Positions 12,699 to 18,983 of a stretch of 21,692 bases of DNA are shown piece after piece; the first letter of the stretch is position 1; every line of letters begins with the position of its first letter. This stretch comes from a virus. Where the stretch lies: the IMG/VR virus record IMGVR_UViG_3300042475_003676, positions 1 to 21,692 of that record; one strand, written 5' to 3'. Below the pieces are notes generated by a model that saw nothing but the letters and a program-made list of their open reading frames with translations, was not told the origin of the DNA and did no database searches. The position numbers and the translations under genes were made by a program.

Positions 12699-12887
12699 AT
12701 GCTTCTACGACACAAACGAAACGGCAATGTTTATGCGTATGCCAAGGTCCTGATGGACTCTGGCGATTACGAGATTTACGAAGAGCCCAAGCCCGCAAAG
12801 GTTGAGCCTGAGCCCGCGAAGGTTGTTCGTCGCAGAAGGTCAGCCATCCCAAAGACCGGAGAGCCACATGGCACAGACACCCAATGA
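12699..12887 (+). CDS. Small conserved phage protein after capsid (62 aa)
   Basis: ATG at 12699. The product starts MLLRHKRNGNVYAYAKVLMD and has an acidic/Pro segment with the repeat PKPAKVEPEPAKV before VRRRR. The 'MLLR(N/H)...G.VY.Y...L......YEE' pattern is familiar from short genes that follow the major capsid gene in many phages; function unknown. There is no ribosome binding site: the start follows the pyrimidine tail of the terminator hairpin directly. It overlaps the next gene by 20 bases and may help to open that gene's start. The duplicated AKVEPEP/AKV stretch suggests a small internal repeat. Confidence 0.7.
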   Translation: MLLRHKRNGNVYAYAKVLMDSGDYEIYEEPKPAKVEPEPAKVVRRRRSAIPKTGEPHGTDTQ

Positions 12888-13566
12888 AATCCTCACCAGG
12901 GCTGGAGACATCCTTCAGGACCAAACCAACGTCCGTTGGGCGCAAGCCGAGCTGCTCCGCTACTTGAATGATGGACGCCGGGAGCTTGCGATCCATCGCC
13001 CCGATATTTACTCATCGACCTTCGTCCTGACGCTGGTTGCTGGGTCTCAGCAGTCCATCCCTACGGATGGCAACCGCTTCCTGGATGCAGTCCGCAACAT
13101 ATCTGCTGCCAACGCAGTGGGTCGTGCGGTCCGCGTGGTGGAGCGGGAAATCCTTGATGCTCAGCTGCCCGACTGGCATACCGAGACGTCATCGACGAGC
13201 CTCAAGCACTTCATGTTCGACGAGCGCAGCCCGAAGACGTTCTACGTCTACCCGCCTGCCACCGCTGGGCACAAGCTTGAGATCGTGTACTCGAAGTCTC
13301 CGGTCGACATCACGTCCGGCGATCTGTCGTCTACGTCGATCCTGTCAAACGAGGACATCTACTCTGGTGTGCTGCTGGACTACATCCTGTACCGCGCATT
13401 CAGCAAGGACAGCGAGTACGCCGGGAACATGCAGCGCGCTGGCGTTCATTACCAGATGTTCGCCAACAGCCTGGGCATCGGCAATCGTCGTCGCTACGCC
13501 ACTTCACCCAATGTCGCAAACATGGATGGCGTTCCATCCAAGGCGACCCAACTTGACGCGGCATAA
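12868..13566 (+). CDS. Head-tail adaptor candidate (DUF6682-like)
   Basis: ATG at 12868 with GGAG six bases upstream, inside the previous gene; an earlier in-frame start at 12802 would add 22 unlike residues. The 232-residue product begins with helices (PNEILTRAGDILQDQTNVRW, AQAELLRYLNDGRRELAIHR) and continues beta-rich (TFYVYPPATAGHKLEIVYSK) with a C-terminal helical end. I recognise this arrangement as the DUF6682 type, found after capsid genes in podoviruses. Position and helical bundle suggest a ring adaptor between portal and tail. The next gene starts two bases after its stop. Confidence 0.78.
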   Translation: MAQTPNEILTRAGDILQDQTNVRWAQAELLRYLNDGRRELAIHRPDIYSSTFVLTLVAGSQQSIPTDGNRFLDAVRNISAANAVGRAVRVVEREILDAQLPDWHTETSSTSLKHFMFDERSPKTFYVYPPATAGHKLEIVYSKSPVDITSGDLSSTSILSNEDIYSGVLLDYILYRAFSKDSEYAGNMQRAGVHYQMFANSLGIGNRRRYATSPNVANMDGVPSKATQLDAA

Positions 13567-13568
13567 AG

Positions 13569-14219
13569 ATGGCGACGCTAAGCGACTTCTATCCCTACGT
13601 CTTGCCTGAAATCCCTGGGTGCCCGGAGATCACGGCTGACGTCGCGCTGCGGGCTTCGCTCATCGAGTTCTGCGAGAAGTCGCTCATCATCCAGCGCGAT
13701 CACGATCCGATCACGGTCATCCTGAACAAGACGGACTACGACCTTGAGCCGCCGACTGGTCAGCTGGTCACCAAGATCATGCGAGCTTGGTACAAGGATA
13801 CGAAGCTTGACCCGATTGCGCCTGACAACGTAGACGCAGCCACGGTCTACAACTCGCTGTTCTCCAACGCGAGCATCAAGAAAGCTGACCCTCGTCAGTT
13901 CCTGCAGAAAGACGAGCGCACGATCACTGTGTTCCCCGTGCCCAAAGAGACGGCTGCGAACTCACTGACGTTGCGCGTAGCGCTCAAGCCCACCAGGAAG
14001 GCGACCGCTTTCGACGACATCCTGTTTGAGGACTACGCCGAGGGGATCGCTCACGGCGCGAAGTACCGGCTGTTGGGTATGGCAAACAAGCCTTGGACGA
14101 ACGGACCCGCTGCTGCCTCTGCGCTGTCGCTATTCAACGCTGCGGTCAATGTGGCGCGCAACCGCGCAGCCCGAGGCAACACACGCGGCGACGTTCGCGT
14201 GACTCTGACTGGAGTCTGA
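13569..14219 (+). CDS. Virion connector/structural protein (216 aa)
   Basis: ATG at 13569, two bases after the upstream TAA and without a good ribosome binding site, so re-initiation is likely. The 216-residue product starts MATLSDFYPYVLPEIPGCPE, followed by DVALRASLIEFCEKSLIIQR, a short beta region (TVILNKTDYDLEPPTGQL), and a C-terminal LPFED-like segment (FDDILFEDYAEGIAHGAKYR) ending in an Arg/Ala-rich helix. Proteins of this look follow the adaptor gene in many podoviruses and are counted as virion connector or tail-tube proteins; I cannot name the exact role. Its stop is one base before the next ATG. Confidence 0.75.
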   Translation: MATLSDFYPYVLPEIPGCPEITADVALRASLIEFCEKSLIIQRDHDPITVILNKTDYDLEPPTGQLVTKIMRAWYKDTKLDPIAPDNVDAATVYNSLFSNASIKKADPRQFLQKDERTITVFPVPKETAANSLTLRVALKPTRKATAFDDILFEDYAEGIAHGAKYRLLGMANKPWTNGPAAASALSLFNAAVNVARNRAARGNTRGDVRVTLTGV

Positions 14220-14220
14220 G

Positions 14221-14559
14221 ATGGCAGAAAAGATCAAGCTTGTACAAGGCGACACCTACCCACAGGTCAAGGTGACCCTGACTGAAGAGAACTCTGGTCA
14301 GCCGATTGATCTGACTGGCGCATCGGTGACGCTTCACTTCCGCGCCGTTGGCGGCACGACCGCGCTCTTCTCACGTAACGGGTTTGTGAACCCGCAGACC
14401 GCCACAAACGGCGAGGCAATCTTCCAGTGGCAACCAGGGGACCTCAACGTCCCCGCTGGCGACTACGAAGGCGAGATCGAGGCTGTGTGGAGCAGCACTG
14501 GGGCACGGCAGACCGCCTATGAACTGCTGAAGTTCAAGGTGCGCGAGGACATTGCGTGA
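14221..14559 (+). CDS. BppU-N-like Ig-fold baseplate/tail protein (112 aa)
   Basis: GGAG lies six bases before the ATG. The 112-residue protein is nearly all beta: IKLVQGDTYPQVKVTLTEEN, PIDLTGASVTLHFRAVGG, then AIFQWQPGDLNVPAGDYEGE and LLKFKVREDIA. The pattern 'GDTxPxVxxTLxDxxGxPIDLTGA.V.F..R' followed by 'G...Y.W...D...G.Y..E' is that of the Ig-like N-terminal domain of the lactococcal phage baseplate upper protein (PF10651 type). In phages it anchors receptor-binding parts. Here it stands alone without the usual C-terminal domain, and is followed with a GTGA overlap by the long repeat protein, with which it may form a complex. Confidence 0.8.
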   Translation: MAEKIKLVQGDTYPQVKVTLTEENSGQPIDLTGASVTLHFRAVGGTTALFSRNGFVNPQTATNGEAIFQWQPGDLNVPAGDYEGEIEAVWSSTGARQTAYELLKFKVREDIA

Positions 14560-16568
14560 ATCTGAACGCGGTCTGGCGCGTCATCACAAGCGCGGTCAAC
14601 GCGCCAGCGATCAAAGCAGAAGCCAGCGCCAGCGCAATTTCGATTCAGGCTCAGGTCGAGTACATCAAGCTCGTCTATGAGATCGGCATCTTCCTGCTCA
14701 TCCTGGAACGCGAGGACACGGTCCCGGTTTCGGATGCAACGCGGCGAGACTTTGGCAAGCTGCTGGCTCACGCAACAGCTGTTGTCGACCAGTACGCCTC
14801 AGCCTATGGGCTGAACAAGGCTGACGCTTCTCAGATCACTGACGCGCACTTCAAGGACCTAGAGAAGGTCTTTGGCGGGATCGTCCCGTACTCGTTCGAC
14901 TACTTTGCCGAGGACTACATCTACGGCGGCTCGGGCGGAGAGGAGCGCTTCAGCGCCCGCGACCTGTATGTCTACTTCCTTGGCAAGCCCCTTGCCGATT
15001 CCTTCAAGGCTGTTGACAAGGCTGTCCTGGCAACCGACAAGCCCCTGCTTGACAGCAGCGGAGCAGCGGAGCAAATCTCCAAAGGACCCAACAAGGTCCT
15101 GGTAGACCTGTCGGCTGCAGCAGAGAAGTACATCGCCGAGGTGGGCAAGAACATCGCCGACACGGCTCGGTTCTCAGACGTTGCTCGCCGTGATTTTGGC
15201 AAGGCGCTCCAGGACACGGTTGGGTTCACTGACGACGTCGACGGAGCGTTGACGATTGAGGATGACCAAGAGGTCGACTTCTTCAAGTTCACGACGGACC
15301 GCTTCGTTGCTACTGACATCTTTGATCGCACTGTCCAGTTCGACCGCAAGTTCGCTGACGGCTCCGGGGCGTCAGACGCCAAGTCCATCGAGACCGGGAA
15401 AAACCTAGCGGACGGGTCTGGCGCAACAGATGTCAAGCAGCTGTTCACTGCGAAGTCTCTGGCTGATAGCTCTGGCGCAGCCGAAGCGATCAGCAAGGGT
15501 CCTGGCAAGACAAACTTTGACGCCGCCTCGACATCGGACAAAGCAAACAAAGAGACTGGTAAGAACAACAGCGACACAACAGCTGTTGCTGACTCGCGCG
15601 CCGCCCACGTTGGCAAACCGTTGTCGGAAACAGCTGGTGCAACAGATGCCGCCAGCCTAAAACCCGGCAAGGTACTGTCTGACAGCGCTGCGTTTGCTGA
15701 CGCCTTGTTCAGGGCGCAGGGCAAAGCGCTTGCAGACCAGAGCAGTGCCACTGACCTGATCAGCAAAGAAAGCGGCAAGCCACTGAGTGACGCCTGGGTC
15801 GTCTCAGACCTCAAGTCTCTGTCACTCGGCAAGGTGTCGGCAGACAGCGCGGCGTTCGCTGATGTCCTACACAAAGGCGGGACAAAGCCCTTGGTGGACG
15901 CATCTCGCGCTGTGGACGCGATCAGCAATGCGCTGGGCAAGCTCCTGCCCGAGCCCTACGCCTATGACTTCTTCGCACAGGAGTACGTCAACGATGAGAT
16001 CGTCGTCCTGCGGGATGCGATCTTCTTGACGCCTGGAAAGGGGCTGTCCGACATCACTGGCGCAACCGACCTGTTCTACCGGCAGGTCAACTACGTGCGC
16101 TCCCTGGGTGATGGCGTGGGCGCGACCGATGACGTTGACGGGCTCACAACCAACCTAGACGACCAAGAGCTTGAGCCAGGGAAGAGGCTGTCTGACACCT
16201 ATGGTGTGGCGGACTTCCTTGCCAAAGCCTTGAGCAGAACCCTGGCGGAGTCTTCTTTCGTCACCGACGTGCGTGTGTTGTCCCCAGGCAAGGCGTCTTC
16301 TGACGCTGCTGGCGCCACCGACGTCAAGGTGCTGACCCCTGGAAAGGTGTTGGCTGAAACAAGCCGCGCAATGGACGCGGCATCCAAGTTTTCCGGCAAA
16401 GCGCTTACCGATGCGGGACGCGCAGCCGATCAAGTGCTCAGGTCTCCTGGGCTAGTCAAAGTGGATACGACCTCGATCTCCGACACGGGGTCGCTTGCCA
16501 ATCAGAGTTATTGCTCTGATGGCTTTTACTTCGGGGGCGACTTCGTCGGGGCGTCCAGAACTTTCTGA
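14556..16568 (+). CDS. Long tail/fibre protein of 18-residue repeats
   Basis: Starts at GTG 14556 (GTGA overlap; GAGGA upstream). The 670 residues have an N-terminal helical part (1-50, with the hydrophobic VYEIGIFLLILE), a first aromatic segment (about 109-130: YSFDYFAEDYIYGG), and then from about 143 to 650 some 24 tandem repeats of about 18 residues with consensus G-K-x-L-x-D-x-x-G-A-T-D followed by six variable residues; ten successive units at about 285-460 keep exactly 18. Two breaks near 224-265 and 470-550 hold related inserts. The C-terminus repeats an aromatic block (SDGFYFGGDFVG). Such regular repeats suit an extended trimeric fibre or tape-like rod. No enzymatic motif. Exact place in the virion is not known. 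Confidence 0.82.
   Translation: MNLNAVWRVITSAVNAPAIKAEASASAISIQAQVEYIKLVYEIGIFLLILEREDTVPVSDATRRDFGKLLAHATAVVDQYASAYGLNKADASQITDAHFKDLEKVFGGIVPYSFDYFAEDYIYGGSGGEERFSARDLYVYFLGKPLADSFKAVDKAVLATDKPLLDSSGAAEQISKGPNKVLVDLSAAAEKYIAEVGKNIADTARFSDVARRDFGKALQDTVGFTDDVDGALTIEDDQEVDFFKFTTDRFVATDIFDRTVQFDRKFADGSGASDAKSIETGKNLADGSGATDVKQLFTAKSLADSSGAAEAISKGPGKTNFDAASTSDKANKETGKNNSDTTAVADSRAAHVGKPLSETAGATDAASLKPGKVLSDSAAFADALFRAQGKALADQSSATDLISKESGKPLSDAWVVSDLKSLSLGKVSADSAAFADVLHKGGTKPLVDASRAVDAISNALGKLLPEPYAYDFFAQEYVNDEIVVLRDAIFLTPGKGLSDITGATDLFYRQVNYVRSLGDGVGATDDVDGLTTNLDDQELEPGKRLSDTYGVADFLAKALSRTLAESSFVTDVRVLSPGKASSDAAGATDVKVLTPGKVLAETSRAMDAASKFSGKALTDAGRAADQVLRSPGLVKVDTTSISDTGSLANQSYCSDGFYFGGDFVGASRTF
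14774..14783. repeat. AACAGCTGTT palindrome, copy 4
   Basis: Same ten bases in the repeat-fibre gene, in another frame (Thr-Ala-Val with the locally uncommon codon ACA). Confidence 0.6.
14982..16490 (+). repeat. Tandem 54-bp / 18-residue repeat array
   Basis: Protein-level tandem repeat inside the preceding entry. Units include GKNLADGSGATDVKQLFT, GKPLSETAGATDAASLKP and GKALADQSSATDLISKES. DNA identity between units is modest, so the array is old or under selection for protein pattern instead of recent slippage. Interrupted twice by non-repeat inserts, at about 15225-15350 and 15950-16170. Confidence 0.8.
15578..15587. repeat. AACAGCTGTT palindrome, copy 5
   Basis: Same ten bases about 800 bases further in the repeat-fibre gene, read Thr-Ala-Val within DTTAVADS, a unit that departs from the repeat consensus. 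Confidence 0.6.
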
Positions 16569-16582
16569 AAAGGAAAATCACC

Positions 16583-17041
16583 ATGCTGAATGAAAACCTC
16601 AAACTCTCCGGCGAAGTCAGCCTCGTCCTCAAAGACAAGGATGGCAACGTCAAGGATCAGCGCGAGATCAAGAACCTTGTCGTAAATGCTGGGTTGGCAT
16701 ACATCGCCTCCCGCATGGTTGGCACCGCCAAAGCTGTCATGTCTCACATGGCACTTGGCTCCAACAACACCGCCGCTGCCGCTCCTCAAACGGATCTGCA
16801 GTCGATCCTTGGCTCGCGCGAGGCAATCGACACCACCACGATCACCGGCAGCAACAACGAGAAGGTTCAGTACGTCTGCGCCTTCGAGGCTGGTGACGCG
16901 ACCGGCGCAATCGTCGAGGCGGGCATCTTCAACGCCGCATCTGGCGGCGACATGCTCTGCCGCACCACGTTCGCCGTGGTCAACAAAGCCGCTGACGACA
17001 CGATGACCGTCACCTGGACGATCACGCTGTCGGCTGTTTGA
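16583..17041 (+). CDS. Conserved virion/tail-fibre-associated protein (152 aa)
   Basis: AGGA lies eight bases before the ATG. The 152-residue product begins MLNENLKLSGEVSLVLKDKD and has the blocks KNLVVNAGLAYIASRM, MSHMALGSNNTAAAAPQTDL, then VQYVCAFEAGDATGAIVEAG and NAASGGDMLCRTTFAVVNK before a closing TVTWTITLSAV. I recognise this as a beta-sandwich family widespread near tail-fibre genes of siphoviruses and podoviruses, annotated variously as tail-fibre or hypothetical. It may be a short fibre, decoration or fibre-connector protein. The G-A-I-x-E-A-G-I-F-N motif is its most conserved mark. Confidence 0.8.
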   Translation: MLNENLKLSGEVSLVLKDKDGNVKDQREIKNLVVNAGLAYIASRMVGTAKAVMSHMALGSNNTAAAAPQTDLQSILGSREAIDTTTITGSNNEKVQYVCAFEAGDATGAIVEAGIFNAASGGDMLCRTTFAVVNKAADDTMTVTWTITLSAV

Positions 17042-17060: not shown

Positions 17061-18983
17061 ATGGCACAGCTAACCACGCGCACGACCTCCGCACCTGGGG
17101 CGACCGCAAAGGGGTCTCCCCTCACCAATGCGGAGGTTGATCAGAACTTCAACCGTCTGAACAAGGCGGGACCTCAGATTCGTCCATCGCTGTTGCTGGA
17201 CTTCGCCAACAGCGAGTCCGTCGACAACCGAATCACGTTCAACCGTGCATCTGCGGCGACGCGGTACGACTCCAATGGTGTGCTGCAAACGCTGCGCAAT
17301 GACAAGCCGCGCATCGACTTTGACCCAGTTACTGGCGAATGCAAGGGTTTGTTGATTGAGGAGCAGCGAACGAATATTTCTGGCAATGTCAGCTATCCGT
17401 CTTCGGTGTCATTCCTGAATTGCTTTGGCGTGTTCAATGCCGCCGTTGCGCCTGATGGAACATACACCGCGCTGCTTGTTCAGAACGTACCCTCTCCGAC
17501 AAGCGTCACCTGTTTATTCGTTAATGCGCTGTCAACAGTAAGCGCCGGTCAAGTTTACCGTTGTTCTATTTATGTGAAGGCAGGTCCAAATCCGGATTCG
17601 ATTGCTTGGGCAATATATGACGTCGCGACAAGTGTAAATTATGGAAGCATAAATATTGCCTGGACAAACGGGGTCCCATCAATTACCGGAGGTAATGGCA
17701 CTGGCGCCATTTCAAGCGCGGGGAATGGCTGGTATCGCGTGAGCGTCACAGCGACTGTTGCCGCTGGCAAGACAAACATGCTTGGTCTTTTATACCCAAG
17801 CGGCGGCGGCGCCGGTAGCAAGAACATCTATTGCTGGGGCTCGCAGTTTGAGCTTGGCTCGTTTGACACCAGTTTAATCGACGTAAAGCCAATCTTCACC
17901 TCCCGCAATTCATCCGCCACATATTTCGACAGCACGGGCGTTTTGCGCACTGCCGGTCCCAATCAAGCCCGATATGGCTATGGGTATGACAGCGATTCTG
18001 GTAAGTGGGTCAGCCAGGGGCTTTTGCTTGAAGGCGCCGCAACGAATCTTATCCTCAGCTCTATAACTGCCAATATCGGGAGCAATTGGCAGCAGTACAA
18101 CACCGCAGTTCTGACTGAAAATTATTCAACCGCCCCAGATGGGTCAATGACCGCCGGAAGAATTACCACAACTTCGGCTGGGACCGTAAGAGTTGGATCG
18201 GGAGCCCTTAGCTCATCAACTTCATACTGCGCATCGATTTGGGTTAAGTCAAACACTGGCTCCAACTACACCTTGGCGCTCCAAGTTGGTGACACCAATG
18301 TTGCGCAGATTACAGCTACTCCAACTTGGCAGAGATTCTCAGGGGCTGGATCGCCACAACAAACCGGATACAACTTTATTGACCTGGAGCAAATTCAAGC
18401 CGGGGCTGATATTTCCGTTTGGGGTGCCCAGCTTGAAACAAGCGCTGTCGCAACCTCCTACATCCCAACCTTCGGCTCCACAGCAACCCGCGCTGCAGAT
18501 GTAAGCAGCAGCGCAGCCGCAACGCGGGCTGCTGACAATCTTGCAATGGACTTCAGCCGCTTGGCTAAGACCAAGGGATTTACTGTTGCGGGCGAGGCTG
18601 AGGCTTTCGGAGGTCAGTCTGGGCGAATCATTGCGCTGGCTCCGACATCGTCTGACACGTCGAACATCTTCAGCGTCAATTTTGAGCCAGCCAACTTCAG
18701 AACTTACCAGTACTCAGGTGGTGCGCTGCGTTTCAACACTGCAGGCGCCGGGTATCTGGCGAATACATTTTTGAAGTTTGCGCTTGGCGTTTCCGGCAGC
18801 GCGTTCAGCACCGTGGTCAATGGTTACAGGGAAAGCGGGACTGGTGCAGTTGAAATGCAGACAGACCACCTGCGCATCGGATCAATGAACCCAGGTCAGT
18901 ACTACCTGTCTGGGCATATCAAACGGCTTGCGTACTTCCCGCAGAAGCTGTCTGACAACGAACTGACTGCATTCACACAATAA
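17061..18983 (+). CDS. Modular tail spike/adhesin with duplicated domain
   Basis: GGGAG precedes the ATG at 17061. The 640-residue protein has an N-terminal fibre-attachment-like part (1-45, with LTNAEVDQNFNRLN), then a block at 46-108 (LLDFANSESVDNRITFNRAS, YDSNGVLQTL, GLLIEEQRTNI) that recurs at about 282-330 (SSATYFDSTGVLRT, GLLLEGAATNLI). Each copy is followed by a jelly-roll-like region (YRCSIYVKAG...GNGWYRVSV...; YCASIWVKS...WQRFSG...) ending in a WG(A/S)Q(L/F)E motif. The C-terminal 490-640 resembles a concanavalin-like fold (GRIIALAPTSS... LRIGSMNPGQYYLSGHIKRL). No glycosidase acids can be named, so a binding role is safer than a depolymerase claim. Codon use turns AT-richer from about 17360. 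Confidence 0.82.
   Translation: MAQLTTRTTSAPGATAKGSPLTNAEVDQNFNRLNKAGPQIRPSLLLDFANSESVDNRITFNRASAATRYDSNGVLQTLRNDKPRIDFDPVTGECKGLLIEEQRTNISGNVSYPSSVSFLNCFGVFNAAVAPDGTYTALLVQNVPSPTSVTCLFVNALSTVSAGQVYRCSIYVKAGPNPDSIAWAIYDVATSVNYGSINIAWTNGVPSITGGNGTGAISSAGNGWYRVSVTATVAAGKTNMLGLLYPSGGGAGSKNIYCWGSQFELGSFDTSLIDVKPIFTSRNSSATYFDSTGVLRTAGPNQARYGYGYDSDSGKWVSQGLLLEGAATNLILSSITANIGSNWQQYNTAVLTENYSTAPDGSMTAGRITTTSAGTVRVGSGALSSSTSYCASIWVKSNTGSNYTLALQVGDTNVAQITATPTWQRFSGAGSPQQTGYNFIDLEQIQAGADISVWGAQLETSAVATSYIPTFGSTATRAADVSSSAAATRAADNLAMDFSRLAKTKGFTVAGEAEAFGGQSGRIIALAPTSSDTSNIFSVNFEPANFRTYQYSGGALRFNTAGAGYLANTFLKFALGVSGSAFSTVVNGYRESGTGAVEMQTDHLRIGSMNPGQYYLSGHIKRLAYFPQKLSDNELTAFTQ

Follow-up and report, generated by a model that had tools for sequence, protein, structure and literature searches.

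An 18-residue-repeat protein as the candidate rope of a beaded, side-attached phage adsorption fibre

Introduction

To our knowledge few structures of beaded phage fibres have been described, and we know of no account of how the length of such fibres is controlled. Fibre I of the Ralstonia podophage GP4 reportedly consists of five gp80 dimers strung on an elongated rope protein, and GP4 is also said to have two adaptors. Other described systems share parts of this design. In the Alishewanella siphophage LSH1, gp34, gp35 and gp36 are an Ig-fold protein, a GP4-fibril-like dimer and a distal payload, reported to occur together in all cases; gp35, a relative of the bead protein discussed below, matches 8JOU_g, the dimeric GP4 fibril protein, and a poorly predicted region beside the payload domain was left unexplained by the authors (PMC13243795). 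The neck fibre of the Anabaena myophage A-1(L) (gp82-gp81-gp80) has two end proteins and, between them, a repeating part of about 14 trimers of a single protein, with no rope reported (PMC10966104). Finally, the virion structural proteins of PHROG 384 (e.g. BcepGomr gp17) carry short repeats and are followed by a bead gene.

The window analysed here is a stretch of viral DNA of 21,692 nucleotides (IMG/VR record IMGVR_UViG_3300042475_003676). Like GP4, the window phage is a podophage with an SU10-type portal and adaptors, and in the window, as in GP4, a small adaptor-like protein, a candidate rope and a bead are encoded together. The bead is predicted to be of the same fold class as GP4 fibre I (gp80, PDB 8JOU), with a weak match to Pfam Gp80, and the candidate rope is likened to that described for GP4; unlike in GP4, the window bead falls under the Pfam Gp80 cut-off, and the repeat family reaches 32 units. 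We propose, with moderate confidence, that the window phage has a beaded adsorption fibre of the GP4 fibre-I kind, attached to the side, in which the repeat protein serves as the rope and its units dock the beads. A literature search found no account of 18-residue phage fibre repeats.

An 18-residue repeat in a 670-residue protein

The open reading frame at 14556-16568 encodes a protein of 670 amino acids, very rich in Ser, Ala and Asp, whose autocorrelation at lag 18 has a z of 12.8 against shuffles; lags 36, 54 and 72 are high too, and there is a 6-residue sub-period (z = 4.6). Six other window proteins tested gave z values of -0.5 to 1.5 at lag 18. With an iterated unit profile built from the family, 26 units are recognised in this protein, against a mean of 0.24 and a maximum of 1 in its shuffled versions, which bears out the 18-residue repeat described in a sequence-only reading of this DNA. 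That reading had counted ten consecutive units and about 24 in all, slightly low compared with the 11 and 26 given by the profile, and had placed the array at 14982-16490, which leaves out the first 142 residues of a gene that starts at 14556, and whose last unit ends at 16502. Exactly 18-spaced blocks have unit starts at residues 67-85 (2 units), 143-215 (5), 263-443 (11) and 542-632 (6), and two further units start at residues 494 and 514. The features of the protein, the units being assigned by the family unit profile, are as follows.

14754-14861, + strand: repeat units 1-2, residues 67-102
14895-14918, + strand: internal copy of the YFAEDY motif (FDYFAEDY), read from the sequence, the same as the conserved C-terminus of relatives
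14982-15251, + strand: repeat units 3-7, residues 143-232; unit 7 opens a long TDDVDG..DDQE unit
15342-15935, + strand: repeat units 8-18, residues 263-460; an unbroken run of 11 units, all exactly 18 residues apart
15963-15989, + strand: second internal YFAEDY-like motif (YDFFAQEYV), read from the sequence and compared with the C-termini of relatives
16035-16148, + strand: repeat units 19-20, residues 494-531; includes the second long TDDVDG..DDQE unit
16179-16502, + strand: repeat units 21-26, residues 542-649
16515-16565, + strand: putative C-terminal cap motif, SDGFYFGGDFVGASRTF (family form YCxFDYFAEDYVGxSxTF), near-invariant at the C-terminus of relatives

With two internal copies of the C-terminal motif, the window protein appears to be made of three fused blocks. 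The DNA copies are diverged, to the point that a 54-base array goes undetected by Tandem Repeats Finder, so the period is maintained by selection at the protein level and not by recent duplication.

A scan of viral contigs yielded 54 loci with 45 distinct repeat proteins and 577 units. The relatives are 212 to 694 amino acids long and have 6 to 32 units, with the consensus G1 K2 x3 L/F4 S/A5 D6 S7 x8 x9 hydrophobic10 T/S11 D12 x13 x14 x15 hydrophobic16 x17 x18. Over the 577 units, position 2 is K or R in 90%, position 6 is D, E or N in 99% and position 12 is D or E in 99%. Unit spacing is 18 nearly everywhere, with some steps of 19 or 20 residues and one recurrent longer unit of about 28 residues with TDDVDGxAxxxDDQExxF. 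The window has this longer unit at 15198-15287 and 16095-16184, and most relatives retain one or two copies; it could bind metal or offer a special site for docking.

The constancy of these positions bears on two other readings. A flexible low-complexity spacer, which would provide reach only and bind nothing along its length, would suit the low predicted order and fast evolution of the protein, but charge or polarity kept at 90-99% at positions 2, 6 and 12 is more constraint than a spacer needs, and the 18-spacing is retained across distant phages; we regard this reading as improbable. The two acidic positions per unit would also be expected of a calcium-binding RTX-like array, with two nine-residue repeats per 18-residue turn that become ordered only with calcium. 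However, these positions are 6 apart and not 9, no RTX/hemolysin-repeat Pfam family matched any of 18 members, and the units do not fit the GGxGxDxUx nonapeptide, which makes such an array highly improbable.

In searches with the window protein and 18 members, no Pfam family was found for the repeat protein, while PHROG 384, with partial coverage, was matched by 4 of 18 proteins scanned (phrog_384). Sequence searches of the PDB with repeat-protein profiles returned chance matches only (myosin, an Ig-repeat tail protein and others). The N-termini of many relatives (e.g. L031:6004-6180) have a nine-residue repeat of their own, xIxFKKAxA, in 2 to 5 copies and variable, which is perhaps an anchor to the adaptor.

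The gene cassette

The repeat gene lies in a cassette whose order is nearly invariant: an Ig/BppU-like adaptor, the repeat protein, a small beta-sandwich bead and a swappable adhesin. The idea that the repeat protein is a fibre component thus fits the data, its gene being within a tail-fibre cassette. In the window the four genes are the following.

14221-14559, + strand: Ig/BppU-like adaptor, 112 aa (Pfam BppU_N weak, E 0.024; phrog_1084, 5e-6)
14556-16568, + strand: repeat protein, the candidate rope, 670 aa (18-residue period z 12.8; 26 units; 45 distinct relatives)
16583-17041, + strand: bead protein, 152 aa, GP4 gp80-like beta-sandwich (Pfam Gp80 E 5e-4, below cut-off; phrog_5417 E 2e-30)
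17061-18983, + strand: adhesin-like tail protein, 640 aa, whose first 100 or so residues are constant and the rest swappable (phrog_5939 tail protein, E 9e-89)

Linkage was assessed in a non-circular way, on loci retrieved by the bead alone: in 80 of the 80 close bead loci the repeat protein is directly upstream of the bead, bearing the C-terminal motif or one closely similar. Conversely, in loci fetched with the repeat protein the bead is downstream in all but three (L006, L017 and L035), whose sequence stops at the repeat gene. At every locus selected by the repeat protein that is long enough to show it, adaptor, repeat protein and bead come in this order, including loci whose capsid and neck genes are dissimilar to those of the window. 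When bead-fetched and rope-fetched loci are pooled, 139 of the 140 bead loci that extend far enough upstream have the adaptor ahead of the repeat gene, and the protein downstream of the bead starts with KGSPLTNAEVDxNFxxLN (strict pattern) in 116 of 142 cases. A gene for a bead related to GP4 fibre I invariably comes next after the repeat gene, and this points to a rope on which other subunits are carried. Beside the distant bead groups (L169-L187) a clear 18-residue rope is mostly missing; bead and rope are therefore not universally associated.

Two contigs show the behaviour of the last gene. Over adaptor, repeat gene and bead, L002 has 0 differences from the window in 2818 bases and L004 has 33, and in both the distal parts of the 17061-18983 protein differ from those of the window, the first 80-100 residues being identical. 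Judged from these sequences, this protein behaves as an adhesin with exchanged distal parts.

Upstream of the cassette, two consecutive SU10-type adaptor genes occupy 12826-14219 (Pfam SU10_adaptor, E 2e-35 and 2e-8), in line with the two adaptors of GP4. At the other end of the window, an AAA_5 (MoxR/CobS-like) ATPase gene lies at 176-1420 on the - strand.

Identity of the bead protein

The window bead matches Pfam Gp80, 'Podophage GP4 fiber I protein', with an E of 5e-4 and 20.7 bits for a cut-off of 27, and the bead of the cyanomyovirus BUCT-ZZ01 matches it with an E of 0.0012. A plain Foldseek search with a bead model returned nothing significant. In a second look with VIA-align, the model of a relative's bead, which folds well, aligned with HFTV1 9h4p_BD (Z 11.1), also matched by sequence (E 2.6e-7), with 6hhk (Z 8.6), and with 8jou_a, 'Fiber I and fiber-tail-adaptor of phage GP4', over 105 residues (Z 6.9, a range that may mean only a common arrangement). 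Taken together with the model, these matches place the predicted bead in the fold class of GP4 fibre I gp80. That the Pfam match is under the cut-off and the Z with 8jou_a is in this range counts against the rope reading. Among the structures with which this model aligns are Listeria phage A511 gp105 and a phi812 arm segment. Herelleviridae arms were considered as a close parallel and rejected: although gp105 of A511 has the fold of the bead, such repeats are absent from gp104, encoded before it.

Length variation and conservation

Close relatives differ by whole units. Between L051 and L053, which are 95% identical in DNA, there is a single clean indel of 162 bases, exactly three units, and L055 is longer than L034 and L049 by three units; single-unit steps also occur, which argues against units being needed in pairs. 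These differences of exactly three or one unit fit the suggestion that the length of the array could set that of the fibre. The bead is the more conserved partner, with a mean identity of 65% versus 37% for the repeat protein, and it has the higher value in all 105 pairs compared.

Predicted structure of the repeats and proposed fibre

The structure prediction that had been proposed as a check was made on the monomer of a relative of 280 residues: from an alignment of 27 sequences, AlphaFold2 left it unfolded, without strands, at a pLDDT of 33. When the tail of the L027 rope and one bead were modelled as one chain, one stop codon being read through as a modelling device, the bead folded mostly at pLDDT 74-95 and the rope stayed at 25-44. 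The sequence-only reading had envisaged a self-contained fibre fold, which finds no support in repeats that are without a predicted fold alone or beside one bead. In this single-bead model the rope was not docked on the bead, which counts against the rope reading.

A single-chain beta-solenoid, in which each 18-residue unit would form one triangular coil of three hexads, is suggested by 18 being 3 x 6 and by the 6-residue sub-period; of the features of left-handed beta-helix hexapeptides this sub-period is present, with no Pfam match, but solenoids are usually predicted well and the 280-residue relative is not, so that we consider this fold very unlikely. The sub-period, with hydrophobic residues at positions 4, 10 and 16, would equally suit the stacked strands of a trimeric shaft, i.e. 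a beta-structured rod of three chains wound around each other, in which every unit makes one rung, the beads forming a separate tip or collar. This design is common among phage fibres, and intertwined trimers are often missed by monomer prediction. Nevertheless, a shaft leaves unexplained why a GP4-fibre-I-like bead gene is constantly adjacent and more conserved than the shaft itself, and the Ser/Ala/Asp-rich composition speaks against it; we judge it unlikely.

The rope reading rests on the linkage at 80 of 80 loci, the GP4-like character of the bead and the portability of the cassette, as well as on the repeat protein itself, which has no predicted fold of its own, has diverged more than the bead in all pairs compared and gains or loses whole units between close relatives. 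In the fibre that we propose, the small Ig/BppU-like adaptor would fix the N-terminus of the rope to the virion. The 18-residue units would form an extended chain, largely unstructured alone, on which they would act as docking sites for the bead subunits made from the next gene; we guess that each bead subunit takes one unit. The YFAEDYVG-type C-terminal motif would cap the chain and likely join it to the distal adhesin. The number of units would determine the number of beads, and hence the reach of the fibre. If this is true, fibre length and adhesin reach are written digitally as a number of units, altered by whole-unit duplication or deletion, and the family offers a countable length code (6 to 32 units), with near-isogenic pairs exactly three units apart, in a portable cassette with a swappable adhesin. 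The model would also give a testable function to proteins listed as 'hypothetical' or 'virion structural' that have no Pfam family.

Related architectures in other phages

Bead homologues follow repeat proteins in Achromobacter phages CF418P1, ART and Axy14, Burkholderia phage BcepGomr, Aeromonas phage phiA008, EBPR siphovirus 1 and phage Simon. In the siphophages the repeats lie behind a two-domain N-terminus, and in BUCT-ZZ01 they are fused to a baseplate wedge protein, the bead being elsewhere in the genome. Lag 18 is significant in CF418P1, phiA008, EBPR siphovirus 1 and BUCT-ZZ01 (z 4.1-16.2) and in Axy14 (z 4.3), and is not on the short arrays of BcepGomr, ART, Simon and CP81; the 18-periodicity persists beside some distant beads. 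Like the window repeat protein, the PHROG 384 protein ends in short repeats and the same type of C-terminal motif ahead of a bead gene, but it has a large two-domain N-terminal anchor and few repeats. By sequence comparison, the same architecture, diverged, is found in podo-, sipho- and myophages, where the proteins are mostly annotated 'hypothetical protein'. That an unfolded rope of 18-residue segments, each recruiting one beta-sandwich subunit, is a widespread unrecognised module in these three kinds of phages is a more tentative proposal, to which we would give somewhat less than an even chance.

The LSH1 module shares with the window cassette the Ig-fold protein, the GP4-fibril-like dimer and the distal payload, but no rope was recognised in it (PMC13243795). 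Its poorly predicted region might be rope-like, and the rope reading could account for it.

A profile of the adaptor matched none of the 8JOU chains, 8jou_D included, which counts against the rope reading. BcepIL02, a relative of GP4, has a candidate rope, gp56, between a bead-like gp55 and gp57, which matches the GP4 chain 8jou_D with an E of 3e-20. Compared with the window, the gene order is reversed. The 20-residue period of gp56 and its unrelated consensus also count against the rope reading; gp55-gp57 may represent one and the same design built on another repeat. The gp56 protein (L066:7723-8580), the candidate rope of Bcep22-like phages, has 285 amino acids, a 20-residue period with a z of 8.3 and, by eye, about ten GxGxAxLxL units.
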